Assembly: GCA_036397255.1 (NCBI GenBank)
Contig: DASWJH010000005.1
Location: 1-37,532, forward strand
DNA: 37,532 nucleotides
Source of the DNA: Nitrospiria bacterium
GTDB lineage: Bacteria > Nitrospirota > Nitrospiria > DASWJH01
Direction of reading: 5' to 3'
The translations under genes were made by a program, and so were the position numbers. Positions within the stretch are counted from its first letter, which is position 1. Every line of letters begins with the position of its first letter. Below the pieces are notes generated by a model that saw nothing but the letters and a program-made list of their open reading frames with translations, was not told the DNA's origin and searched no databases. Of the stretch, positions 4,275 through 26,074 are shown piece by piece.

Positions 4275-5696
4275 TTACCTATCGGAACCGATATAATTAC
4301 TGTAACGTTCCGGATTCATTTTGAACCGGTTTTGGCACTCTTCCGAACAGAAGAAAAAGGTTTGCTGATTCATCCTGATTGTTAAATTGGATTCTTCCAC
4401 CACCATTCCACAAACAGGATCTTGCTTCATCTTGAATCCAGGTGCAAGGGAAACCCTCTGCTCCTTTTCGAGACCAACCATTAAGGATAAATGATCCAAG
4501 AGAAGGCGAGGAAGAAGAAAATGCTCTTTGACCCGTTGCTGCCCTTTTCTTGCTAATTCCTTTTTTTTCTCAGGTCGTTCAAGCAATTGAGAAATGGCTT
4601 CCGCACATTCCTCCACCCCATCCACGAGTATTCCCCCAACCCCATCCGCCATCTGAAGAGGAATCCCACCTGCCTTCCCAGCGACCACCGGAGTTTCTTT
4701 CCAGAGAGCCTCTGAAACAACAAGCCCAAAACCCTCCCGTATCGATTTTTGTACCACCACATCAGAGAGCCGCTGAAACGCATTCACTTCAATATTGCCT
4801 ACCCCGGTAAGATTGGTAAAAACATGAATAAAGGGATCTTTTCGGCCTTCCTTCATAATTTCCTGATATATTTTCCAACCCTCTGGGTCATCCAAGGCCA
4901 TGGAACCCACCAGGGCAAGCTGAAGATTTGGAATTTTTTCTCGGACCAGACGGTAGGCAGCGATAACACCCAAAGGGTCCTTCCAAAGATCAAAGCGGGA
5001 CACCTGGGTGATCAGTGGCTGATTTCCATCGATTCCGATCCAAGCCAGGATTTGACGTGCCATCTTCTTAGGAAGGTCCATATTTTTTGGACTTAAAGGA
5101 TCAATGGCGGGAGGTATAATGGTCACGTTGGCAATAGGGAAATCTGGGGGTAAAAACTCGCGCATGGTAAATATTGCAGCATTATAATCCTTAAGGAATC
5201 CTTTTAAAAATTTCCACACGGTTGGGTTGGGGTTTGCGGTATCTATATGGCATCGCCAAATCCATCTGGCGCGTTCATTGGGGCAGAGTAATAGCATCCC
5301 TGCGGGTTGGGGGTCATGGATAAAAACAAAGTCATATTGTTCCTGAAATTGGCGTGCATTCTTCTCCGTATTGGAAAGGTAAGCATCTTTTTCCCTGGAG
5401 GTTAATCCTTCCCTTGCTCCTTGAAGTCCATTGTGGACCTTCTTGGTGACATTAAAAAACTCGTCATCCCCACTAATTATTTTCCAGTCTGTGAGAATCC
5501 CAAGGTCGTTCATGAGGGGTACCAAAGACCGAAGCAACTCAGAAACACCTCCCCCATAGGGTGTTGCATTCACATGCACCACCCGCCTTCCTTTGAGTTC
5601 CCCTGCGATATGAATCAGATTATCCATGATGGCATCTGGTGCTATACCCCGATAGGCCTCTATTGAACGTTTTCCAATATCAACCGTCTGCAGCAT
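4275..5696 (-). CDS. GT4 glycosyltransferase (TreT-like) with C-terminal YHS domain
   Basis: Residues 1-420 of this 473-aa protein form a retaining GT4 glycosyltransferase resembling trehalose glycosyltransferring synthase (TreT, which joins NDP-glucose and glucose). Evidence is the N-terminal HVNATPYGGGVSELLRSLVP, EFFNVTKKVHNGLQG, FIHDPQ, the QVSRFDLWKDP loop, and the nucleotide-sugar motif IREGFGLVVSEALWKETPVV. From about residue 425 a complete YHS module follows (DPVCGM, then FFFCSEEC). Met423 sits at the junction, but no good Shine-Dalgarno precedes it, so I read one fused polypeptide. The protein is cytoplasmic. The 4-bp gap to the DUF3047 gene shows tight coupling. A trehalose-forming activity is likely but unproven, and the YHS domain may bind Cu+/Ag+ or regulate activity (inference). 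Confidence 0.88.
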   Translation of the reverse strand: MLQTVDIGKRSIEAYRGIAPDAIMDNLIHIAGELKGRRVVHVNATPYGGGVSELLRSLVPLMNDLGILTDWKIISGDDEFFNVTKKVHNGLQGAREGLTSREKDAYLSNTEKNARQFQEQYDFVFIHDPQPAGMLLLCPNERARWIWRCHIDTANPNPTVWKFLKGFLKDYNAAIFTMREFLPPDFPIANVTIIPPAIDPLSPKNMDLPKKMARQILAWIGIDGNQPLITQVSRFDLWKDPLGVIAAYRLVREKIPNLQLALVGSMALDDPEGWKIYQEIMKEGRKDPFIHVFTNLTGVGNIEVNAFQRLSDVVVQKSIREGFGLVVSEALWKETPVVAGKAGGIPLQMADGVGGILVDGVEECAEAISQLLERPEKKKELARKGQQRVKEHFLLPRLLLDHLSLMVGLEKEQRVSLAPGFKMKQDPVCGMVVEESNLTIRMNQQTFFFCSEECQNRFKMNPERYSNYIGSDR

Positions 5697-7111: not shown

Positions 7112-7657
7112 TTATTTCTCTCCCTCTTTTGGCATCATTCCTTGCTGTCTCATCATCATCTCGTGCTGCTCTCTCAACTGATCCATCTCCCTCATCATTT
7201 CACCCATTTCACCCTTGGTTTTCCTATCTTTTGCCATTCCTTCCATCTGCCCCATCATCTTGTGCATCATCTCCATCATTTCACCCCGCTCCCTCATCAT
7301 CTCCATCTGACCCTTGCCCATCCTTTTCACATCCATCCCTTCACCTTCCATCATGCTTTTCGATTTCATCCTGGCCTGATGCCTTGTCATCATCTGGCCC
7401 ATTCTCTGCATCATTTTCCCCATCTCACGTTTCCCTTTTTCATCCTGTTGCATTCCTTGCATATGTCGCATCATCTCGTGCATCATCTCCATCATCTCAC
7501 CTCGATCCCTCATCATCTCCATCTGGCCCTTGCCCATGCTTTTCATATCGCCCTCCTTGCCCTTCATCATTCCCTCACCCCCCATTTGGGCAAATACCAA
7601 TGAGCCGATGGATACGGCACACATACAAACCAGCATTGAGATAATTCGATTTTTCAT
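7112..7657 (-). CDS. Met-rich periplasmic protein with internal duplication
   Basis: This 181-aa protein has a signal peptide (1-23, ending SLVFA). By my count the mature part has about 47 Met in roughly 158 residues, with many Lys, Glu, Gln and His. Two 48-residue repeats, at about 41-88 and 113-160, each start MGKGQMEMMR and contain RGEMMEMMH. The Met-x-x-Met pattern resembles periplasmic Cu+/Ag+ buffers. Similar Met clusters occur in CopA/PcoA, CusF and SilE-like proteins, but I recognise no named family. A strong site (GAGGGGGTAAAA) precedes the ATG. It is transcribed with the free YHS gene 15 bp upstream. I infer a periplasmic copper or silver sponge or chaperone, probably helical. The long plus-strand frames opposite it are artefacts of its ATG/CAT-rich codons. 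Confidence 0.85.
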   Translation of the reverse strand: MKNRIISMLVCMCAVSIGSLVFAQMGGEGMMKGKEGDMKSMGKGQMEMMRDRGEMMEMMHEMMRHMQGMQQDEKGKREMGKMMQRMGQMMTRHQARMKSKSMMEGEGMDVKRMGKGQMEMMRERGEMMEMMHKMMGQMEGMAKDRKTKGEMGEMMREMDQLREQHEMMMRQQGMMPKEGEK

Positions 7658-10921: not shown

Positions 10922-11206
10922 TCAGGCTGCTTTTATATAGGTTTCGGGGTCTTTCTGGAATTTTTCTTGGCATTGGGCTGAACAAAAATAATAAAGCCCT
11001 CCCCGATACATTTTGGTAAAATTCGCTGTGCGGGCATCGAGCCTCTCCCCACAGACGGGATCCTGGACGGGTCTTGAGGTTTCTTTTCCAGAGAATTCCT
11101 CATGATGGCCCCCATGACCACCCCCCATCATATGGGCCCCGCACCCCCAGCGCATCATGACAAAAAACAGAATTCCAATAAAAAGGAAATACAGCACATC
11201 AGACAT
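10922..11206 (-). CDS. Membrane-anchored YHS protein with His/Met linker
   Basis: This 94-aa protein has one N-terminal helix (3-19), then a metal-binding-looking linker CGAHMMGGGHGGHH (22-35), then a YHS domain (about 48-92) with DPVCGE and YYFCSAQCQEKF. The usual Met of the VCGM box is Glu here, the only such change among the six YHS copies. It is encoded 109 bp after the P-type ATPase and 19 bp before the 2-TM protein. Given the short N-terminus before the helix, the YHS side could be either face of the membrane. A copper chaperone that docks metal to or from the ATPase is a reasonable inference. Confidence 0.87.
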   Translation of the reverse strand: MSDVLYFLFIGILFFVMMRWGCGAHMMGGGHGGHHEEFSGKETSRPVQDPVCGERLDARTANFTKMYRGGLYYFCSAQCQEKFQKDPETYIKAA

Positions 11207-11315: not shown

Positions 11316-13895
11316 TCACAGATTCACGTTTCTCAATCGAAGGGCATTGGTGATGACGGAAACAGAACTAAAGCTCATGGCTGCGGCAGCGATCATCGGT
11401 GATAACAGAAGACCGAATATGGGGTAGATCACACCAGCGGCAATGGGAACCCCAACTGAATTGTAGACAAATGCAAAGAAAAGGTTTTGACGGATATTCC
11501 GCATAGTGGATCGGCTTAAACGCCGTGCACGGACGATGCCCCTAAGATCCCCTTTAACCAAAGTCACCCCGGCACTCTCCATCGCCACATCGGTACCCGT
11601 GCCCATTGCAATACCCACCTGGGCCTGAGCCAAGGCCGGTGCATCGTTGATACCGTCCCCTGCCATGGCCACCGTTCTTCCCTCAGCCTGAAGTTTTTTT
11701 ATTACTTCGGCCTTCTGATCCGGCAGAACTTCGGCCTGGACCTGATCGATATTTAGCTTCCCGGCTACGGCTTCGGCGGTTTTTCGGCTATCTCCGGTAA
11801 GCATAACCACCTTAATCCCTTCGGCATGTAGGTCCCGTATCGCCTCGGGTGTGGTCTCTTTGATGGGATCGGCAACTCCAATCAACCCAACCGCTTTCCC
11901 GTCTATACTCAATAACATAACCGTTTGACCTTCCGCCCGCTGCCGGTCTGCCTGTTGACCTAAATCTCCGGCATCGATCCCCAAATCCTCCAAAAGCTTA
12001 AGGTTACCCAATGCTACCTGACGACCATCCACTTCACCGGTGACACCTTTACCGGTTACCGACTGAAAGTGGTTGGCTTGCCCCAATTCAATTCCTTTTT
12101 CCTCCGCACCCCGAACAATCGCCTCGGCCAATGGGTGTTCGCTGGCCTTCTCCAGCGTCGCTGCCACCTTTAAGGCTTCTTCTTCATTCTCCCCTTCGAC
12201 AACCGTTACCGCGACGAGCTTAGGTTTACCTTCTGTCAATGTACCGGTTTTATCCACCACCAGTGTATCGACTTTCTCCATGATCTCCAGGGCCTCGGCA
12301 TTTTTGATCAGCACCCCCAGGGTCGCCCCTTTTCCGGTTCCCACCATAATCGACATGGGTGTGGCTAACCCTAACGCGCAGGGGCACGCGATAATCAACA
12401 CGGCCACGGCATTAATCACCGCATGAGCCAACCTCGGCTCAGGCCCCCAGAAACCCCAGACCCCCAGTGTAAAAAATGCAATGAGGATAACCGCGGGAAC
12501 AAAATATCCGGAGACAGTATCCACCAGCTTTTGAATCGGAGCGCGGGAACGCTGGGCCTCGGCAACCATATGGACGATTTGCGACAACAGGGTATCAGCC
12601 CCGACTTTTTCCGCCTTCATCAATAAACTACCGGTACCATTAACAGTTGCCCCGATCAGTCGTTCACCAGCCGTTTTGGCAACTGGGATCGGTTCCCCTG
12701 TGACCATAGACTCATCCACATTGCTTTGTCCTTTAACCACCGAACCGTCTACTGGAACTTTTTCACCCGGGCGGATGCGAAGTATATCCCCCGATTTCAC
12801 ATGTTCCAATGGAATGTCCTCTTCCAGGCCCCCTTCATGGACAATACGGGCGGTTTTCGGTGCCAGTCCCAGCAATAATTTGATCGCAGCACTGGTTTGA
12901 CTGCGTGCCCGAAGTTCCAATACCTGCCCGAGAAGAACCAAGGCGGTGATCACCGCCGAAGCCTCAAAATAGACCGGAACCACCCCCATTTCATTGAACA
13001 CGGACCTTGGGAAAATTCCCGGAATGAGAGCCGCGATTGCACTATAGGTCCAGGCTACACCCACCCCCATCCCAATGAGGGTAAACATATTGAGGTTGCG
13101 GGTCACCACTGAATTCCATCCGCGCACAAAGAAAATCCACCCTCCCCACCAGACAACTGGAGTGGCCAATCCCATCTCCACCCATTGTCGGATACGGGGT
13201 TTAATGATCTCCGCAAGCGCTTCCGGCCAGAACTCTGCTCCCATTGCACTCAAAAATATTGGAATGGCGAGCAGGGTGCTGACCCAAAACCGCCGGGTCA
13301 TATCATCCAGCTCGGTTGTATCTTCTTCTACGGTAACCGTTCGGGGCTCAAGGGCCATTCCGCATTTAGGGCAGTTACCTGGATGATCCTGAACCACTTC
13401 AGGGTGCATGGGACACACATATTCCGTTTTGCTGACTGCAACCGGTAACCCTTTTGGCTCCAAGGCCATACCGCATTTAGGGCAACTCCCCGGCCCCACC
13501 TGTTCAATTTCGGGGTCCATGGGGCATGTAAAAATTCTTTCCTCCCCTCCTGGTTTTTCCTCCTTCTGGGTTTTTGCTCCCCCAACTTCTTTTTTTAGAA
13601 ATTGTTGAGGATTTTCCTGAAACTTTCCTAAGCAATGCGTGCCGCAAAAATAATAGGTTTTCCCTTCATGAGTGTGTTCTCCGGATGCTGTTTTTGGATC
13701 GACGCTCATCCCGCAAACCGGGTCGATTTCCTTCCCAACGGCAACGGATTCACCCGGAAGGAACCTGGAAGGTTCGGCTTGAAACTTTTCCAGGCAATGG
13801 GTGCTGCAAAAATAGTATGTCTTCCCTTCATGGGTATGCTTTCCCTCGGCCTTCTCCTCCTCAACATCCATTCCACATATTGGATCCGTTGCCAT
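11316..13895 (-). CDS. copA: Cu+-exporting P1B-type ATPase with tandem YHS and HMBD domains
   Basis: This 859-aa ATP-driven exporter of Cu+ (or Ag+) carries four N-terminal metal modules: YHS1 (about 1-46), YHS2 (57-102), and two heavy-metal-binding domains with CPMDP...CPKCGM (124-143) and CPMHP...CPKCGM (161-180). The ATPase core shows MVTGEP (397-402), CPC (504-506), the phosphorylation site DKTGT (548-552), HP (587-588) and GDGIND (746-751). Membrane residues CPC, YN (811-812) and MSFSS (840-844) match the Cu+ subgroup P1B-1. There is no classical HMA CxxC domain; the YHS/HMBD modules replace it. The start is the ATG directly before YHS1. It lies 24 bp after the methyltransferase-like gene and is probably the core of the island. 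Confidence 0.95.
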
Positions 13896-13919: not shown

Positions 13920-14570
13920 TTAAACCTCGGATTTTACTTTTCTCTTAAAATTTGGAAAAAACATCGGTGTTACCGCTTTGTAGCGACTATAGGCCTCCCC
14001 AAATTGTTTTTCCACTTCGGCTTCTTCTCGGCGGGCCAAGTGCATATACATATAAAGAAGGATCGGGAACATCAGCAAGGTCAGGAGTGTCGGCCATTGG
14101 AATAAAAACCCAAGCATAATCAGCACAAAGGCCGCGTACTGAGGGTGGCGGATATACGCATACGGACCGGTAACGGCGAGGGTTTGGGTCCGCTGTGCCG
14201 AATAGAGCACCTTCCAGGCGTTTGCCAACAAGGAAAATCCGCCCACGATGAAAACAAGACTCAACAGATGAAACGGGCCAAAATGCGGGTTTCCCCGCCA
14301 GCCGAATAGCATCTCGGGCAGGTGTCCCGAATCGTGTGCGAACCAGTCGACGCCGGGGTAACGGCTCTGAAGCCAGCCGGACAGGAAATAAATCGTGAGC
14401 GGAAAACCGTACATCTCCGTGAACAGTGCCACCAGGAATCCTGAAAATGCGCCGAACGATCGCCAATCCCGCGCTGTTCGAGGCTTCGTAAAACTGAACG
14501 CGAAGAGTATGAAGATGAGGGAGTTGACGATCACCAACGACCAAAGTCCGTAGGAAGGGGCTTCATTCAT
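13920..14570 (-). CDS. Isoprenylcysteine carboxyl methyltransferase-like membrane protein
   Basis: This 216-aa membrane protein has about five helices. The C-terminal catalytic-type region VTGPYAYIRHPQYAAFVL (about 135-152), followed by EEAEVEKQFGEAYSRYKAVTPMFFP, is the SAM-binding signature of the ICMT/PEMT superfamily. Bacterial members near heavy-metal ATPases are common, and their substrates are mostly unknown. The ATG overlaps the stop of the DUF2933 gene by 4 bp, so the two are translationally coupled, and the ATPase gene starts 24 bp downstream. Local GC content looks higher than in the next genes, which may mean a separate origin. Confidence 0.85.
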   Translation of the reverse strand: MNEAPSYGLWSLVIVNSLIFILFAFSFTKPRTARDWRSFGAFSGFLVALFTEMYGFPLTIYFLSGWLQSRYPGVDWFAHDSGHLPEMLFGWRGNPHFGPFHLLSLVFIVGGFSLLANAWKVLYSAQRTQTLAVTGPYAYIRHPQYAAFVLIMLGFLFQWPTLLTLLMFPILLYMYMHLARREEAEVEKQFGEAYSRYKAVTPMFFPNFKRKVKSEV

Positions 14571-14806
14571 TTTTTTTCTCCCTCCACTTCGTGGTGATGA
14601 TCCTGAGCGCCGTGCTTTCGATGCATAAACAGGTGTATAAACGGGCAGGCCAATAACAACAAATATGGCAAGATGCCAAAAAAATGCGCCCAGTGCTCAC
14701 TCAAGAGAAGAAAACCCACAATTGCAAGAAAACCCAGCAGCCCGAGGTTGGCAGGTTGCCCGAGCCAATTTTTTCCCTGTGGACCATGTTTATTTTGCAT
14801 CTGCAT
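14567..14806 (-). CDS. DUF2933 small membrane protein
   Basis: This 79-aa protein has two helices (about 20-36 and 42-60) and a His-rich C-terminus (CPFIHLFMHRKHG, DHHHE). It fits the DUF2933 pattern found in copper/mercury resistance islands next to ICMT-like proteins. The site AGAAGAAGGG precedes the ATG. It is the first gene of the 14-kb minus-strand run and overlaps the next gene by ATGA. Function is unknown; the His cluster suggests metal contact. Confidence 0.82.
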   Translation of the reverse strand: MQMQNKHGPQGKNWLGQPANLGLLGFLAIVGFLLLSEHWAHFFGILPYLLLLACPFIHLFMHRKHGAQDHHHEVEGEKK

Positions 14807-15204: not shown

Positions 15205-16014
15205 TCATTTCTCTCCGAGGAACAGGATATAATGAACCAAGTCCCAAGCCTGATCCTCTCTACCCGAAAAAAGATTACTATAGGAAGGCATGGGTGTTCC
15301 ATCCAGCCCGGTCATAATCGTCCGATAAATATCCTCATGACTGGTCCCATTTCCGAATGTCTCCCGTAACGTTAAATCCACAGGCATGATGGAAAGGCCT
15401 CTTTCATCCTTAAAATTGACAACCGCCCCTCTCCCGTTCTTTCCGTGGCATTCATAACATTTTAATTCTTGGTACAACTTTTTCCCTCTTTTAACGCTTT
15501 CAACGGAATACATATAAGGGCCCACATGTTCCACATACTTGATCGTCGTCTTCTTTGGCAACTCATCCTGGATAAATTCCTCCGCGATATATAAGGCCAC
15601 CTGCCTGATCTTTTCCTCGCCCATATTTCGAAAAGAAGGCATAAAGCCTGGAATTCCTTCCCGGATCGTTCTCATTAGATCGGACAGGGTGGGGTACTCC
15701 CCCGATTCTGTGGATCTAAATTTGAAAATCCCCCGTGTAAAATCATTCGGTCTGGGATGGGAATAAGGGCCGAGGAAAAAAGAAGCGGGGCCGTCCCCTT
15801 TTCCATTGCTTCCATGACAAAAAACACAGCTCATGGAATAGATCATTTTTCCCATCATGACATCCTCAGAAACAGGGGCTTCCATTCCGCCCATGGATTG
15901 TTTTCCATGTTGGTCTTCTGAAGCAAACAGACTGGAGAGGACGGGCACGATACCGAGACTGACCAAAACTACAAACAGCGGAAACAGTTTCATTTTCAAA
16001 CTGACTTTTCTCAT
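15205..16014 (-). CDS. Periplasmic diheme cytochrome c
   Basis: This 269-aa exported cytochrome has a signal peptide (about 1-31, ending LSSLFA). It has two class I cytochrome domains with CVFCH (63-67) and CYECH (186-190). Likely distal Met ligands are in GIPGFMPSF (Met125) and LDGTPMPSY. The region between is typical of two-domain cytochromes that shuttle electrons in the periplasm. GAGGTTAAAAG precedes the ATG. It lies about 200 bp downstream of the porin-cytochrome gene on the same strand, separated by two palindromic repeats that may attenuate transcription. I infer it accepts electrons from, or donates them to, the outer-membrane partner. Confidence 0.92.
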   Translation of the reverse strand: MRKVSLKMKLFPLFVVLVSLGIVPVLSSLFASEDQHGKQSMGGMEAPVSEDVMMGKMIYSMSCVFCHGSNGKGDGPASFFLGPYSHPRPNDFTRGIFKFRSTESGEYPTLSDLMRTIREGIPGFMPSFRNMGEEKIRQVALYIAEEFIQDELPKKTTIKYVEHVGPYMYSVESVKRGKKLYQELKCYECHGKNGRGAVVNFKDERGLSIMPVDLTLRETFGNGTSHEDIYRTIMTGLDGTPMPSYSNLFSGREDQAWDLVHYILFLGEK

Positions 16015-16072
16015 CTTTTAACCTCAATGAACCCATGTATGTTCTTAACGGGGTTTTAATAAACCCGAATCA

Positions 16073-16106
16073 GTCATTCCCGAATGGTTTTATCGGGAAT
16101 CCAGGA
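16073..16106. repeat. Interspersed palindromic repeat
   Basis: GTCATTCCCGAATGGTTTTA followed by TCGGGAATCCAGGA. The arms ATTCCCGA and TCGGGAAT are perfectly complementary. Confidence 0.75.
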
Positions 16107-16126
16107 CCTTAAAATCAACAACTTTT

Positions 16127-16178
16127 GGATTCCCGCTCCCCGATAAAGGCATTCGAGGACAGGTTTCGCGGGAATGAC
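16127..16178. repeat. Interspersed palindromic repeat, long form
   Basis: GGATTCCCGC at one end and GCGGGAATGACG at the other, with the GCATTCGAGGACAGG insert. It is almost identical to the copy at 1-47. Together with the copy at 16073 it forms an inverted pair between the porin and cytochrome genes. Confidence 0.75.
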
Positions 16179-16215
16179 GACCAGATGCACAAATACAACC
16201 TTTTTCAACACTTTG

Positions 16216-17658
16216 TCAAAAATCAAAATCCAAACCCACGGCAACCAGATTCCGGTAGCTTTGAAGGGGATTGGTGCTGTCGTTTTCCACATTGATGCTA
16301 TCTCTCAAATACATTGAAAAATTGTCCCGGAGATAATAGCGCCCCTGAAGGGTAATGACCTTTGCGTTTGCTTTTTGGGAAATGAACCCTCCCGAATCAA
16401 GATGGTCGTACCGTCCAGAAAAAAGGACCTGATCGGAAGCTAAGTAATCCGCTTCCAGTGTAAATCCAAAAGCCTCGTCATCAAACGACGCTCCAATGGA
16501 ACCGGGCAGATCCTGTATATCATCCCAAATAAAGGCCCCGTAAATATCAAAGGATTTATATTTAACATTCCCCGCAAACCCGTACCGGAGCCAATCAATC
16601 AGAACCGTACTGGTTGAACCGGGAACCACAGGAACCCTTCCCGTATCGTTCCCCCAATAAACCAACCCGGATAAACTGCCCGAGATAAACCGGTCCCTTC
16701 CAAAATTTTTTCGAATCATAAAATAGGGGTCTTTTTTCTGGTTCACATCCGTGGTTCCCGAAGATAATCCCTGCATCAGTCCGGCTTGGACCATGGTCCC
16801 GTTCAACATGGCATGGACGTCCAGGCCAAAATCCCCTGTGGTGTTATAAAGAACTTCTTCGGTTACCTCTACCGCCTCTCCCCCGCTGGACCTCATTCCA
16901 AAAAACTTTGAGGCAAAGGCAAATGGCGTTAAAGAAAACCGCTGAATGGAACCGGAATCCGCCTTGCCCGGAACATTCAGAATAAACTGCCGGTTGGTGG
17001 GGTAGGAAAAATTGGTGGAAGGGTCGATTTTCCCCGCCATGATCATAGGCCCCATGAACATCGGTCCTCCCATGGAACCATGACCGTTTTCCTCTTGCCC
17101 GGATCCCATTTTTTGAATCAGGGGATGGAGGTCGAACATCACAAAAAATTCCTTTCCCAATCCAAATCGTGACGTCTCTCCAAATCCTCCCTGGTTGTTA
17201 CCTTCGATTTCTTTGGTTTCATTTTCCAATTCGAAGAAAAAGCTCACCGAATTGGTAACCGTTCCCGCCAAATAGAGCTCCACTTCCTGAGGCAGTGTCA
17301 GATTGGTTTCAGTAATTTCCCCTCCGTTGAAAGACTCCACAAAGTTTCCTTGCGCCCGCAAAGAAAAAATATTTAAAAAATCAAGCTCAGACCAGATCCG
17401 CCCGATTTTCCGTTTTTCTTTAATCTCCCCTTCTTCCGTCATGGGGATTTGAAACCCCGCCATATGAAAGGCTTCGCCAAACGCATTGAGCCGGGGAGGT
17501 TTCGTGTGGCAGGACGTGCAGGAGAGATCATGTTTCCGGGCAAAAGCGGGGATGGCGTGGGAAAAAGCCGGAAAAAGGGAGAGGATAAAAAGAACCGCTA
17601 TCCAACCCAAAACGATTTTCTTCCCGGTGTTTAAGAAAGGGGGACCGCAAAAAGGCAT
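16216..17658 (-). CDS. Outer-membrane fused monoheme cytochrome-porin
   Basis: This 480-aa protein has a signal peptide (1-35, ending AFSHA). The mature N-terminus IPAFARKHDLSCTSCH carries one heme c site (CTSCH, 47-51), then PPRLNAFGEAFHMAGFQIP. The rest (about 80-480) is rich in alternating aromatic/polar strands and ends in F (VAVGLDFDF), as expected for a beta-barrel. This is the architecture of fused cytochrome-porins, including the Cyc2 iron-oxidase group, though the wider family has uncharacterised members. A Gly/Met-rich loop (GHGSMGGPMFMGPMIM, about 192-207) could contact metal. GGAGGAG lies 5 nt before the ATG. I infer electron transfer across the outer membrane, with the diheme cytochrome as periplasmic partner. 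Confidence 0.82.
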   Translation of the reverse strand: MPFCGPPFLNTGKKIVLGWIAVLFILSLFPAFSHAIPAFARKHDLSCTSCHTKPPRLNAFGEAFHMAGFQIPMTEEGEIKEKRKIGRIWSELDFLNIFSLRAQGNFVESFNGGEITETNLTLPQEVELYLAGTVTNSVSFFFELENETKEIEGNNQGGFGETSRFGLGKEFFVMFDLHPLIQKMGSGQEENGHGSMGGPMFMGPMIMAGKIDPSTNFSYPTNRQFILNVPGKADSGSIQRFSLTPFAFASKFFGMRSSGGEAVEVTEEVLYNTTGDFGLDVHAMLNGTMVQAGLMQGLSSGTTDVNQKKDPYFMIRKNFGRDRFISGSLSGLVYWGNDTGRVPVVPGSTSTVLIDWLRYGFAGNVKYKSFDIYGAFIWDDIQDLPGSIGASFDDEAFGFTLEADYLASDQVLFSGRYDHLDSGGFISQKANAKVITLQGRYYLRDNFSMYLRDSINVENDSTNPLQSYRNLVAVGLDFDF

Positions 17659-17760: not shown

Positions 17761-18123
17761 TCAGATCAGAAAAGAGGAATGAAGTTTGTAAAGTTTAGGG
17801 CGGTATTTTGGTAAGAGGGATTTTTTAAAAAAACCGATTGGAGGACCTGGATCTCCAAAAAACATCGGCCGGGGGAGCCCAAAAAGAGGGGACAGACCAA
17901 AAAAGAGGAACAGAAAAAACCCCATGCCCATCAACGGAACCATACCATCCTGAGGGGATGTCAGTGTTAGGCAGGAGTTAAAAAAGCAAACAGGTGCTTC
18001 CCCGTGCCCATGCTGGGCCTGGCTGAACACCCTTTCCAAATGGTCCAGATTGCAAAGGATCAGCGCAAGCCCAATTCCTATGGCCAGTATCACTTCCTTG
18101 GTTTTAGCGTTTCTTCCTAACAT
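17761..18123 (-). CDS. Small hypothetical membrane protein
   Basis: This 120-aa protein has helices at about 10-26 and 63-84, with an extracytoplasmic-looking loop between (QAQHGHGEAPVCFFNSC), and a basic tail. I recognise no family. The loop has His and two Cys that could bind metal or form a disulphide. It is preceded by a strong promoter with an inverted repeat in the spacer and followed at 102 bp by the porin-cytochrome gene, so it may lead that transcription unit. The start is the only ATG near the promoter. Confidence 0.6.
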   Translation of the reverse strand: MLGRNAKTKEVILAIGIGLALILCNLDHLERVFSQAQHGHGEAPVCFFNSCLTLTSPQDGMVPLMGMGFFLFLFFGLSPLFGLPRPMFFGDPGPPIGFFKKSLLPKYRPKLYKLHSSFLI

Positions 18124-20838: not shown

Positions 20839-21232
20839 ACTATTTGAAGGATGAGTCTTTACTGAAAATCTTTCAAATTTAACCCCTTCACACCCAACGT
20901 GCGTCACACCGATTTGATCCCTTTTTTAAAAAACCGATAAACCCGGGTCTATCCTTAAAAAGTCGTCATTGCCGCGCAGGCGGGAATCCAGCATTTTTAT
21001 TTTGGTCTTGCCTCCGACCTCAATCCTCTGACATTTCTCCTGACGCCCCACATCATTTTTGTTTATCTGGTTTTATCAATGCCTCAAGCCTCCAACCTCT
21101 ATCCTCAAACGTTTTTCACTAAGGACAACGAGCGCCTTGACCCCCTTAAGATTGACAACCAACCCTTTTTTTCCTATTATCCGAAACAAATTTACACAGG
21201 GTACAAAAATTTTAATAATGGAGGAACGTAAT
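20839..21232. other. Intergenic region
   Basis: No gene is seen. It contains one palindromic repeat (20965-20993). The frame entering from 21059 is open but has no domain before the DUF1326 start. The site GGAGG at 21219-21223 belongs to that gene. Confidence 0.5.
20965..20993. repeat. Interspersed palindromic repeat
   Basis: GTCATTGCCGCGCAGGCGGG followed by AATCCAGCA. It is a copy of the 20262 element with one change in the left arm. Confidence 0.7.
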
Positions 21233-21883
21233 ATGAGTGATAAATGGATGCTTCGTGGGAAAGAATTCACAAACTGCAATTGTGCTTATGGATGCCCCTG
21301 CCAGTTTAATTCGCCGTCAACCCATGGATTTTGCGAAGCCGTCGCGAGCGCCTTGATTGAAGAAGGGTATTTTAATGACACCCGATTAGATGGGCTAAGT
21401 TTTTGTATTCTTCTCAAATGGCCTGGGGAAATTGCCAATGGAAACGGTCGTTCTCAATTGATTATTGATGAGCGGGCGAATGAAAAACAGCGGGAGGCGA
21501 TCAATAAAATAGCCCATGGGGAATCCACCGCCCCCGGCGCCACCCATTATTTTGTTTTTTACAGCACCATGTCAGAGGTGCTTGAAACACTCTATGCACC
21601 CATTGAGATAAGCATCGATATCGATGCCAGAAAGGCCCATACACGGATTGAAGGTTTGGTGGAATCCGCCGGGGCCCCGTTGATTGACCCCTTCTCCGGC
21701 CAGGAGGCGCGAAAAGGCATCCATTTACCCAACGGTTTTGAGTATACCTATGCAGAAATGGGTAGCGGCAACTCTAGGGTCACCGCAGGCATTCAATTAG
21801 GGTTTAGTAACAGTTACGGCCAATTTAATATCTTGCATATGAACCAGGACGGCGTAATCCGCGATAAGAAACTGGCATTCTAA
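21233..21883 (+). CDS. DUF1326 protein
   Basis: This 216-aa protein's N-terminal motif NCNCAYGCPCQF (Cys15, 17, 21 and 23) and later HYFVFYSTM and HTRIEGLVESAGAPLIDPF fit DUF1326. ATG 21233 was chosen because GGAGG lies 9 nt before it; an in-frame ATG at 21218 has no such site. The Cys cluster suggests metal binding; the biochemical role is unknown. The DUF2182 gene starts 4 bp after its stop, the usual partner of DUF1326, so the two very probably work as one unit. There is no signal peptide, so it should be cytoplasmic. Confidence 0.88.
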   Translation: MSDKWMLRGKEFTNCNCAYGCPCQFNSPSTHGFCEAVASALIEEGYFNDTRLDGLSFCILLKWPGEIANGNGRSQLIIDERANEKQREAINKIAHGESTAPGATHYFVFYSTMSEVLETLYAPIEISIDIDARKAHTRIEGLVESAGAPLIDPFSGQEARKGIHLPNGFEYTYAEMGSGNSRVTAGIQLGFSNSYGQFNILHMNQDGVIRDKKLAF

Positions 21884-21887
21884 AACA

Positions 21888-22658
21888 ATGGGAATTTCCT
21901 ATAAATTACCCCGCCGAGATTTTCTTGCGATTACCACTTCTCTTGGGGGTGTCACTCTATTGTGTTGGGTTTATCTGTTTTGGATGGCCCGCGATATGTC
22001 TACACCCGAATACCTCACCTTTGCGGCTTTGCAGATGGAGCAATGGAGCGCGGGATATTTTTGGATGATGTTTTTGATGTGGGCCATCATGATGGTTGGG
22101 ATGATGGTTCCTTCGGTGGCCCCGATGATTCTGATCTATTCCGCGGTGGTTCGAAAATCTGAAAAACAAGGCACCCCCGTTGCCCCAACCGGTCTTTTTA
22201 CGATTGGCTATTTGATGATCTGGATACTATTTAGCCTTTTAGCAACAATTGCCACCTGGGGATTGAACCAGGCCTCCCTTTTATCCCCCATGTTGGTTGC
22301 AAACAGCCCCTGGTTGGGGGCAGCGTTACTGGTTGGAGCAGGGATCTATCAGTTGCTGCCGTTAAAGGATGCCTGCCTTCAACATTGCCGATCTCCTTTT
22401 CACTTTATTTCTTCCCATTTTTCCCCGGGGCCTTTCGGGGCAATTAAGATGGGTTTATCCCATGGGATCTATTGCTTGGGATGTTGCTGGGTATTGATGC
22501 TGCTTTTGTTTGTCGGTGGGGTAATGAACCTGGTATGGATCGGGGCGATTACATTATTTGTGTTTTTGGAAAAAGTTCTACCGATGGGAAATACCGGCGG
22601 TCGATGGATGGGAATGGTAATGATCACCGTCGGTGGGACGATTTTGTTGTTACAATGA
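21888..22658 (+). CDS. DUF2182 membrane protein
   Basis: This 256-aa polytopic membrane protein has about six or seven helices. The conserved blocks of DUF2182 are visible: WMMFLMWAIMMVGMMVPSVAPM (about 53-74) and GLSHGIYCLGCCWVLMLLLF (about 188-207). Both are rich in Met and Cys inside the membrane, which suggests soft-metal handling. It is coupled to the DUF1326 gene by a 4-bp gap. Function is unproven; a metal transporter or membrane metal-binding partner is inferred from the residues. Confidence 0.87.
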   Translation: MGISYKLPRRDFLAITTSLGGVTLLCWVYLFWMARDMSTPEYLTFAALQMEQWSAGYFWMMFLMWAIMMVGMMVPSVAPMILIYSAVVRKSEKQGTPVAPTGLFTIGYLMIWILFSLLATIATWGLNQASLLSPMLVANSPWLGAALLVGAGIYQLLPLKDACLQHCRSPFHFISSHFSPGPFGAIKMGLSHGIYCLGCCWVLMLLLFVGGVMNLVWIGAITLFVFLEKVLPMGNTGGRWMGMVMITVGGTILLLQ

Positions 22659-22909: not shown

Positions 22910-25900
22910 TTATCTTTCATGGGCCATCGTATCCAGAGAACCGGGCTCCCCGGCGGATTCCGATGGGAGTTCGGGGATAGGGGGGGAAGGGTGGTTTTTT
23001 GCAATTAGCATGTAGAGCGAAGGAACCACAAAAAGCGTAAAGATCGTGCCAATGGTCATCCCCCCGACCAGGACCAGGCCAATAGAGTTACGTGCCGCGG
23101 CACCCGGCCCGTCAACCAGCGTAAGCGGAAAATGTCCTGCAACGGTTGCAACGGACGTCATCAACACCGGGCGCAATCGAGTCATGGCGGCTTCTTTAAT
23201 GGCAGACAGTTTGTCAGAGCCACTTTCCTGAAGCTTGTTGGCAAATTCAACGATGAGGATCCCATTCTTAGCCACCAGACCCACGAGGGTGACCAGCCCG
23301 ACCTGCGCGTAAATATTCATTGTCGTGGTCCACCCGTCGGTCCAGTAGGAAAGGTCCGGGTTGGGCATCTTCAGGGCGGTAAAGATCAGGGCCCCGAACA
23401 TCGCAAGCGGTGCGGACCCCAGTAGTATTACGAAAGGATCCCGGAACGAGTTGAACTGCACCGCAAGCACGAGGAAAATCATAAGGATCGCGAGTCCCAA
23501 CGCAGGAAGAAACTTGCCCCCTTCGGTTCGAAGCTGCCGTGATTCACCGGTGTAATCGATTGTGTACCCGGGAGGCAGAATCTCCCGCGCGGCGTTCTCG
23601 AGAACCTTTAGCGCTTCGTCCAACTGGGCCGTCATTCCGGATAGCTTGATGGCATTGAGCTGCTGGAAACGGTTGAGCGAACGGGGGACCGTGCTATCGC
23701 GAATGGTCGCAAACGTGCTGAGGGACACAAGCTGGTTGTTCGGGCCTCTTACGTAAATGTCGGTCAACTGATCCGGATTGAGCCGTTCGGCCCGAACGAT
23801 TTGAGGGATTACCTTGTAGGCCCGTCCATCGATGTTGAACCGATTGACGTAGTTTCCGCCTACAGCCGCCCCTAGATCCGCACCAATCTGAGCGTTATTC
23901 AAACCGAGCATCGCAACCTTTTGGTGGTCAAGTACAATTTCCGACTGGGGCTGATCATATTTCAGGTCAATCTCCGGAGGGAAATAAAACAGGCCGCTTT
24001 CCATCGCCTTCATTTGAAGTTCTTCCGCAATCCCCAGCATCCGTTCCGGCTCCTCCGTTGATGCGATAATAAATTCAACCGGAAAGTTTCCTCCCCCAGG
24101 GAGTGCGGGGGGTCTGGAAGCAAAAATTTGTAAACCGGGAATGGCCGATAGCTTTGCCTGCATCTCAGGGAGGATTTCCTTGATGGAACGAGTCCGCTGA
24201 TTCCAGGGTTTCACAACCATGCCGCTGAATCCGCCAACCCCCAACGCCGCCGCAAATGGATCCGATGGTGACATGAGAAGTTGGAAGGTAAGATCCCTTT
24301 CCGGCGCTGAGAGAAAAACCTGTTGAGCGGCCCGGCCAAAATGACTCTTCTGATCCGCGGAGGCATTTGCGGAATTGTTGATGATGCCGAACATAAAACC
24401 TTGGTCCTCTACGGGCGCAAGTTCCTTTGGTGAAAACATGTACATGGGAAACGTCATCAAACTGAGAATGATCCATACCATGTAAACAGCCGGACGCGCG
24501 TTCAAGGTTCGATCGAGCATCCCCCCGTAAACCCGGCGCAGGCGGTCGAAATGATGATTGACCCAACCCGTGAAACCCCGCTCTTCGCGCTCTGCGCTAC
24601 GGAACAACTTCGCCGCCATCATTGGGGACAGCGTGAGGGCCACGATACCCGAAATGGTGACCGCTCCCGCAAGGGTAAGGGCGAATTCACGGAACAGCGC
24701 CCCTGTCAGACCGCCCTGCAGACCGATTGGGGTGTACACCGCAGCGAGTGTAATCGTCATTGCGATGATGGGCCCGATCAACTCGCGGGCCCCGATTAAG
24801 GCGGCTTGAAATGGGGTGCGGCCCAGGCGAAGGTGCCGTTCCGCATTTTCAACCACGACGATGGCGTCATCGACAACAAGACCCACCGACAATACAATGG
24901 CAAGCAGCGTGAGCAGATTAAGTGTAAATCCGAACAACTGCATCAGAAAGATACCGCCAATTAACGACACCGGAATAGCGATGACCGGAACCAACACCGA
25001 CCGGAACGAACCGAGGAAGAGAAAAATGACAATCACGACAATGGTAAGCGTGTCGGTCAGAGTGCCGACTACCTCGTGGATGGCGCTGTTGACGTATTCG
25101 GAGGTGTCATACCCGATTCCGACCTCTAGCCCTTTGGGCACATCCCGTTTGATCGCATCCAGTTCGGTCCGCACCCGGTTGACGACTTCGATGATGTTGG
25201 CATTGGGAAGGGCATGAATTCCCATGAAGACAGCGCTTTTTCCGTTAAAGCTCACCTCCGTATCGTAGTCCTCCGCCCCAAGCTCCACCTCAGCCACATC
25301 CTGTAACCGAACAATGGTATCGTTTTCCCGGCGGATAATAATCTGCTTAAACTCCTCCGCCGTGTGCAAGTCGGTGTTGGCGGTAAGGTTGACTTGAACG
25401 AAAGCGCCTTTTGTGCTGCCGATGGCGGCAAGATAATTATTGGCATCAAGCGCAGCGCGGACCTGCGCAGGGCTGACGTTCAAAGCAGCCATCTGAGCCG
25501 GTTTTAACCACACCCGCATGGCGAATGTGCGCGCACCGAAAAACTCCGTACGCTGTACCCCCGTCAGAGCAGCCAGACGGGGTTGAGCAATCCGAACCAG
25601 GTAATCCGTAATTTCGCTTTGGGAAAGAATTTCAGATGAAAAACTCAGGTAGGCGGCCGCAAATTCAGAATCCGCCGATTGAATACTGATGGACGGCACC
25701 TCGGCTTCCGGCGGCAGCTCGTTGCGCACCTGGTTTACTTTCGCCGTGATGTCGGCAAGGGCTTTGGTTGAATCGTAATTGAGCTTGAGCCGGGCCGTGA
25801 TCAGCGAAAGGCCTGACAGGCTTTTGGATTCAACGTAGTCGATCCCGTCTGCGGAGGAGATGGAGCGTTCAAGAGGGGTGGTGACAAAACCCCGCACAAG

Positions 25901-26074
25901 ATCGGCGCTGGCACCCACGTAAACAGTGGCGATGATGACCGATGCGTTTTCGCTTCGGGGATATTGACGGACGCTCAGCGTCTTCCAGGCCTGCAGGCCT
26001 GCAATGATGATCACAACATTGACCACGATGGCCAAGACTGGACGGCGTACGAAAATATCGGTAAAAAATTTCAT
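22910..26074 (-). CDS. RND multidrug efflux permease (HAE1 type)
   Basis: This 1054-aa inner-membrane proton-driven trimeric pump resembles AcrB/MexB-type transporters. It starts with the canonical FFTDIFVRRPVLAIVVN, and the TM4 proton-relay pair is in LSVGLVVDDAIVVVENAERH near residue 405. Full length and both duplicated halves with large periplasmic loops are present. The sequence favours the HAE1 (hydrophobic/amphiphilic drug) rather than the metal (HME) group. It follows its adaptor by 12 bp. No TolC-like outer-membrane factor is in the window, so an unlinked one must serve. GC content appears higher than in flanking intergenic DNA. Confidence 0.94.
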   Translation of the reverse strand: MKFFTDIFVRRPVLAIVVNVVIIIAGLQAWKTLSVRQYPRSENASVIIATVYVGASADLVRGFVTTPLERSISSADGIDYVESKSLSGLSLITARLKLNYDSTKALADITAKVNQVRNELPPEAEVPSISIQSADSEFAAAYLSFSSEILSQSEITDYLVRIAQPRLAALTGVQRTEFFGARTFAMRVWLKPAQMAALNVSPAQVRAALDANNYLAAIGSTKGAFVQVNLTANTDLHTAEEFKQIIIRRENDTIVRLQDVAEVELGAEDYDTEVSFNGKSAVFMGIHALPNANIIEVVNRVRTELDAIKRDVPKGLEVGIGYDTSEYVNSAIHEVVGTLTDTLTIVVIVIFLFLGSFRSVLVPVIAIPVSLIGGIFLMQLFGFTLNLLTLLAIVLSVGLVVDDAIVVVENAERHLRLGRTPFQAALIGARELIGPIIAMTITLAAVYTPIGLQGGLTGALFREFALTLAGAVTISGIVALTLSPMMAAKLFRSAEREERGFTGWVNHHFDRLRRVYGGMLDRTLNARPAVYMVWIILSLMTFPMYMFSPKELAPVEDQGFMFGIINNSANASADQKSHFGRAAQQVFLSAPERDLTFQLLMSPSDPFAAALGVGGFSGMVVKPWNQRTRSIKEILPEMQAKLSAIPGLQIFASRPPALPGGGNFPVEFIIASTEEPERMLGIAEELQMKAMESGLFYFPPEIDLKYDQPQSEIVLDHQKVAMLGLNNAQIGADLGAAVGGNYVNRFNIDGRAYKVIPQIVRAERLNPDQLTDIYVRGPNNQLVSLSTFATIRDSTVPRSLNRFQQLNAIKLSGMTAQLDEALKVLENAAREILPPGYTIDYTGESRQLRTEGGKFLPALGLAILMIFLVLAVQFNSFRDPFVILLGSAPLAMFGALIFTALKMPNPDLSYWTDGWTTTMNIYAQVGLVTLVGLVAKNGILIVEFANKLQESGSDKLSAIKEAAMTRLRPVLMTSVATVAGHFPLTLVDGPGAAARNSIGLVLVGGMTIGTIFTLFVVPSLYMLIAKNHPSPPIPELPSESAGEPGSLDTMAHER

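Follow-up and report, generated by a model that had tools for sequence, protein, structure and literature searches.

The question raised by this locus is which donor is served by a porin resembling Cyc2 and by the diheme cytochrome encoded beside it. The first-pass annotation of the window (the whole stretch of 37,532 nucleotides analysed here, part of a genome assembly of 3.35 Mb) had described a 480-aa protein uniting one heme c site with a predicted barrel, as in Cyc2-type iron oxidases, followed by a diheme cytochrome, and had proposed that the two could move electrons from an outside donor such as Fe(II) or another reduced metal. Cyc2 homologues serve as markers of iron oxidation and, in this order, also of manganese oxidation. 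If a Cyc2-like clade were a copper device, marker-based inferences of lithotrophy on Fe(II) or Mn(II) in Nitrospirota would have to be divided according to clade and partner gene. The pair offers a concrete target of two genes. The features are listed in Table 1.

Table 1. Positions in the window of the gene pair, its motifs and the surrounding genes
Feature	Position	Strand	Remarks
181-aa very Met-rich exported protein	7112..7657	-	no Pfam match
Small membrane protein with YHS domain	10922..11206	-	PF04945 5e-14
Copper-type P-type ATPase with N-terminal YHS-type repeats	11316..13895	-	CPC motif, MSxSS near C terminus
PEMT/isoprenylcysteine-methyltransferase-like membrane protein	13920..14570	-	PF04191 6.1e-8, PF04140 6.4e-7
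DUF2933 small membrane protein	14567..14806	-	PF11666 8.1e-22
Periplasmic diheme c-type cytochrome, 269 aa, obligate partner	15205..16014	-	two CXXCH
Met/His-containing stretch of the diheme N terminus (EDQHGKQSMGGM...VMMGKM)	15835..15918	-	
Dispersed repeat between the porin and diheme genes	16020..16215	-	42 matches in own genome
Cyc2-like cytochrome-porin, 480 aa	16216..17658	-	signal peptide, one CXXCH, barrel of about 16 strands
Met/His-rich stretch KMGSGQEENGHGSMGGPMFMGPMIMAG, linking predicted strands 4 and 5	17032..17112	-	predicted periplasmic turn
Heme c site CTSCH	17506..17520	-	only CXXCH of the 480-aa protein
AIPAFARKH motif	17530..17556	-	H where the published Cyc2 motif has T/Y
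120-aa protein of no recognised family, upstream of the pair	17761..18123	-	no Pfam match

Cyc2 likeness, fold and clade of the porin

The open reading frame of the porin lies where it had been annotated. It begins with a hydrophobic leader ending in SHA just before IPAF, taken by eye as a signal peptide, and ends with a C-terminal Phe. In the part of PMC8406198 drawn on here, Cyc2 is defined by AXPXFAR[Q/K][T/Y]...CXXCH...PXL in a protein of at least 365 aa with a 16-strand porin. The N terminus of the window porin reads AIPAFARKH-DLS-CTSCH-TKP-PRL and the heme site is single; the length of 480 aa lies within the size range of the definition. Measured against the strict motif in that part of the source, PRL is present but the window copy has H for T/Y. 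The last position of the motif is Y in 12 and H in 3 of the 15 members of the window branch; in one of the Y-bearing members (L029) S replaces A in FAR. No match to the window porin was found in Pfam and NCBIfam at E 10 and 1, and membership of a curated family was rejected after a scan of 20 clade members returned two single chance matches. When PDB sequences were searched, the porin itself and two profiles yielded nothing beyond chance matches, so that no solved Cyc2 was found among them; plasmids held no match to the porin. The porin is conserved in 14 further loci at 51-62% identity.

The AlphaFold2 model of the porin has low confidence (mean pLDDT 43, pTM 0.47, six sequences), with an order of 16 strands in which long loops alternate with short turns. 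This predicted pattern is porin-like, with both ends periplasmic as in a porin. The 50 matches shown by Foldseek against the PDB are all porins or porin-containing complexes (best E 1.1e-7). VIA-align 2 gave Z values of 13.3-15.7 over model residues of about 50-446, mostly to porins (OprO 13.8, OprP 13.5) and also to AlgE and one TOM complex. With the heme domain fused to it, the predicted barrel thus agrees with the 16-strand outer-membrane porin of Cyc2, and the barrel foreseen in the first-pass annotation is borne out within the confidence of the model. The fold comparisons support a barrel as fold class and are silent on the substrate. The arrangement differs from MtrAB/MtoAB-type systems, which have a separate barrel and a deca- or multiheme cytochrome, since here barrel and heme are in one chain and the partner has two hemes.

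Such proteins abound in genomes of the class, the sampled loci including 52 with the Cyc2-like motif. The window porin belongs to a clade with support of 100/100, made up of the 15 members of the window branch and 5 Nitrospiraceae-type members of family f2. The names used here, Ca. Troglogloeales-type for the branch and Nitrospiraceae for family f2, are probable assignments. Cytochrome 579 (NF033864) was used as a marker and exceeded the model cut-off in 21 genomes, all of family f23, which is presumably Leptospirillum-like; five long proteins from the 8 of these genomes that were searched form the Cyt572-type sample. They group with other Nitrospiria paralogues, apart from the window clade. 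A tree joining them with that clade was rejected (p-AU 1.4e-5), the Cyt572-type proteins being the only sampled group near a verified iron oxidase in a tree that holds no named verified Cyc2. No characterised protein appears, from the sequences, among the clade members found.

Profile comparisons show that the clade shares ancestry with Cyc2-like proteins, and by descent the window porin is therefore Cyc2-like. The clade matched a set of Cyc2-like proteins taken from further genomes in the class with E 1.6e-23 over 351 columns, two proteins of the FARQT...CHFQHYP type with E 6.5e-15 over 140 columns, and the Cyt572-type set with E 7e-10 over 376 columns. Motif, profile and fold comparisons together show that the protein is a Cyc2-like cytochrome-porin. 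The annotated likeness to Cyc2 thus holds for motif and ancestry.

Like Cyc2 of clusters 1-3 (background in the portions of PMC10654088 and PMC7029218 used here, also for Cyt572), the protein has a signal peptide, a heme domain of the form AXPXFARK...CXXCH...PXL, more than 365 aa and a porin-type barrel. It differs from these clusters in the H at the T/Y position, the separate clade, the obligate diheme neighbour, a Met/His-rich turn predicted to be periplasmic and the neighbourhood of copper pumps. Cyt572 of Leptospirillum (cluster 3) has a Cyc2-like N terminus and a profile match, but it is of a different clade and has 542-560 aa instead of 480. The Cyc2-like proteins of Ca. Manganitrophaceae and other Troglogloeales come from the same class and match by profile, the assignment of a Manganitrophus genome being a guess; they too fall in a different clade.

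The diheme partner and the layout of the genes

The diheme cytochrome annotated next to the porin was likewise found in place. Pfam recognises two cytochrome c domains in it (PF13442 2.5e-20, PF00034 3.4e-17), and it proved to be a conserved partner. It matches PDB 6h5l_B, which we take to be the Kustc0458-type diheme cytochrome, part of a HAO-like complex, along the whole length with E 2.6e-33. Unlike the Kustc0458-type protein it is partnered by a cytochrome-porin and has a Met/His-rich N terminus. The two heme sites (GIPGFMPS, GTPMPS) look like high-potential Met-ligated c hemes, and from the family and these Met/His heme sites the protein is probably an electron carrier.

A homologue of the diheme gene adjoins the porin gene in all 30 testable Nitrospirota loci among 32 examined. 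Of the 20 clade loci 19 could be tested, L032 being cut by a contig end, and in all 19 the two genes are immediate neighbours; in L034 the diheme gene lies upstream of the porin. Twelve further loci, a subset of the further homology matches from which others were left out, gave 11 of 11 testable, including one from another class (L157), with L160 cut by a contig end. The gene is beside none of the 32 other cytochrome-porins, in which respect the pair differs from the Cyc2-like proteins of other Troglogloeales, Ca. Manganitrophaceae among them; for one of the 32 (L065) a diheme homologue is found five genes away on the opposite strand. The conserved adjacency shows that the diheme cytochrome is an obligate partner of the porin, and the possibility that it is an unrelated neighbour was rejected on the same counts.

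The gap between the two genes is about 10-15 nt in several relatives, which fits an operon. In the window it is 201 nt because of the dispersed repeat, whose core is GTCATTCCCGC/GCGGGAATGAC. The repeat is also found at the contig start (1-47), and it breaks the assembly, as several contigs, including this one, start inside it. The 120-aa protein encoded upstream of the pair occurs in 7 of 58 genomes and adjoins the pair in all 7; clustering added two more loci (L027 and L029). Promoter and terminator scans gave no excess over shuffled sequences, and an Rfam scan of the window found no family.

Met/His-rich stretches and copper genes

Both proteins carry Met/His-rich stretches that are largely restricted to the window branch. 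In the porin the stretch was scored as the 27 residues ending with, and including, the G of G-K-x-D-P-S. In the window porin 7 of the 27 are Met or His, residues that make up 3.8% of its remaining sequence; in 14 of the 15 branch members the count is 5-10, against 3-6% elsewhere in each protein. It is 2 in the divergent member L034, and 0-2 both in the five Nitrospiraceae-type members and in the 7 of the 12 further loci in which the stretch could be located. A Met/His-containing tail at the N terminus of the diheme cytochrome is present in 13 of the 14 proteins seen in the window branch, and is absent from L034 and from all 5 Nitrospiraceae-type members. Six relatives, all of family f8, have a literal MDHSxM in this tail, a sequence reminiscent of the copper-binding repeats of CopA, CopB and PcoA. 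Searches with a 48-aa tail gave no match in the PDB, and in plasmids a single one to a "multicopper oxidase domain-containing" protein, whose E value of 9 is too weak to count as evidence. The stretches are putative Cu(I)-binding sites, as looked for in a cuprous oxidase, and from their composition we infer that soft-metal sites binding copper were gained on the periplasmic side in the Ca. Troglogloeales-type branch. That side is predicted from the strand order; given the low confidence of the AlphaFold2 model, it is a topology argument. L034 is a second, divergent copy in genome G035, with the diheme cytochrome enlarged to 406 aa and without Met/His stretches, and is a useful natural control.

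A cuprous oxidase could be expected near copper export genes. The loci were scanned for copper-type P1B ATPases and RND proteins of the CusA/CzcA family, and one or the other was found within 9 kb in 8 of the 15 branch members, in none of the 5 Nitrospiraceae-type members and in 2 of the 32 other cytochrome-porin loci (8/15 against 2/37, Fisher p 2.8e-4). As five of the eight come from family f8, they amount to about four independent cases (f1, f5, f8, f11). The remaining 7 branch loci have no pump in view, several being cut by contig ends. The ATPase of the window scores 598 bits against TIGR01511 (cut-off 397), and all four ATPases scanned with NCBIfam (those of the window, L022, L024 and L033) exceed the cut-off for copper-translocating ATPases. 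RND proteins of the CusA/CzcA family are found in L029 and L024, the latter having a CusB-like adaptor as well. In three f8 genomes porin, diheme, MerR, cytochrome c and ATPase genes follow each other on one strand, directly in L027 and L030 and with two genes between in L024. In L025 the MerR and ATPase genes are divergent and upstream of the pair. The MerR protein of L024 is closest to MerR/ZntR models rather than CueR, and is below every cut-off. The RND pump of the window itself (22910-26074) was rejected as copper evidence, because Pfam places it with AcrB-type pumps and it shares 23% identity with the CusA-type protein.

The Met-rich 181-aa protein of the window has a 50%-identical gene near CopA in the relative L022. 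YHS-type domains are found on four unrelated proteins within 14 kb, all on the minus strand (395-1369, 4275-5696, 10922-11206 and 11316-13895): an ABC transporter ATPase and a trehalose-synthase-like glycosyltransferase each carry one at the C terminus, the small membrane protein contains one, and the copper ATPase has them as its N-terminal repeats. Such tails on so different enzymes are odd, and the region may be a metal-responsive island. Near it, on the plus strand (21059-22658), is a second metal-type pair, a DUF1326 protein followed by a DUF2182/PpoB2 membrane protein annotated as a copper chaperone.

If the pair did the work of a cuprous oxidase, genomes that have it may manage without a CueO-type enzyme. 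A strong match to PF07732 (E 1e-26 or better, a threshold chosen after the list had been viewed, in a family broader than CueO) was found in 23 of the 58 genomes. It occurs in 1 of the 14 genomes with a Met/His-rich pair (G048) against 22 of the 44 without (p 0.0045; p 0.024 when families f2 and f12 are left out). Weaker matches are widespread, with 52 of 58 genomes at 1e-5. The comparison is confounded by family: the oxidase but not the pair is found in 6 of 6 f9 genomes, while a strong oxidase is missing from all 6 f8 genomes that carry the pair, and every f8 genome has either the pair or neither. The exclusion is a hint in support of copper.

Candidate functions of the pair

The pair is best explained, with a probability of about 0.45, as a copper-adapted conduit for electrons in the outer membrane, which may be a respiratory Cu(I) oxidase. 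Cu(I) would then be the donor, with electrons probably flowing to the diheme cytochrome and from there to the respiratory chain. Cu(I) would be moved to the periplasm by CopA or CusCBA and held there by the Met/His stretches; the porin heme would take one electron from it and hand this on, by way of the diheme cytochrome, to the respiratory chain, and Cu(II) would leave through the barrel. In this way the pair would act as a respiratory cuprous oxidase standing in for a CueO-type multicopper oxidase. The pair resembles CueO-type cuprous oxidases and the Met-rich copper proteins CopA and CopB in proposed function and in stretches of the MDHSxM type, but has heme instead of copper centres and no evident sequence relation to them. 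It is also conceivable that the stretches bind soft metals such as Ag or Hg, or that they merely buffer copper. Since the Nitrospiraceae versions are without the Met/His parts, the ancestral role would not have been specific to copper. The wider proposal that a heme-based respiratory cuprous oxidase replaces CueO-type enzymes in Ca. Troglogloeales, possibly yielding energy from copper, is rather doubtful. If the clade is a copper device, copper would be detoxified with the electron saved, whereas a multicopper oxidase passes it straight to O2. No literature joining a cytochrome-porin to copper handling was found among the open-access titles and abstract openings listed.

Iron, the donor named in the first-pass annotation, was not supported: the clade is separate from the Cyt572-type group, and the additions specific to the branch and the gene neighbourhood point to copper. 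A Cyc2-type oxidase of Fe(II), or of Mn(II), in which soluble metal would enter the barrel and be oxidised at the heme while the diheme cytochrome relayed the electron, is nevertheless a possible though not a likely reading. The motif, size and porin fold of Cyc2 fit it, as do the profile matches to the Cyc2-like and Cyt572-type proteins of Nitrospirota. In the part of PMC9040806 drawn on here, Cyc2 homologues are reported for the majority of Ca. Troglogloeales and for other Nitrospirota, with a role in Mn(II) oxidation proposed in Ca. Manganitrophaceae; these homologues may already include the window porin. The nearby copper genes would then be incidental or would supply copper to a terminal oxidase. 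Such an oxidase leaves the Met/His additions in both proteins and the linkage to pumps unexplained, the clade stands apart from the Cyt572-type proteins, and other cytochrome-porin-like proteins in the genome could do the job.

The stretches and the copper genes would also suit a pair working in the other direction, with the porin admitting copper, the cytochrome reducing it to keep Cu(I), electrons running outward from the diheme cytochrome, and the Met/His stretches passing Cu(I) to cuproproteins or buffers. Porins, and OprC/NosA, are entry routes for copper across the membrane in the portion of PMC7558416 used here, and the DUF1326 protein and the putative copper chaperone of the window would agree with uptake. 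This is improbable, because the neighbouring pumps are exporters and not importers and both diheme hemes look high-potential and Met-ligated, suited to accepting electrons. Least probable is an unspecific function common to all Nitrospirota members, with another donor or an extracellular electron route, in which the stretches would only protect the pair from soft metals or oxidants. In its favour, Nitrospiraceae-type genomes and a further class keep the pair, lacking the Met/His parts at the loci where their position could be identified, but the stretches were gained by two separate proteins in the same branch and the pumps cluster there.

Two further observations concern genes around the pair in relatives. 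In the four f2 loci L035-L038 the pair is followed by an exported protein of about 245-283 aa, with a weak CarboxypepD_reg match, and by large hybrid histidine kinases; because of these downstream genes the regulation of the pair may differ in Nitrospiraceae-type genomes. In L022 and L032 the gene of an 11-heme cytochrome (717-738 aa) lies upstream of the porin gene, at a distance of four to five genes, possibly a further extracellular electron system.
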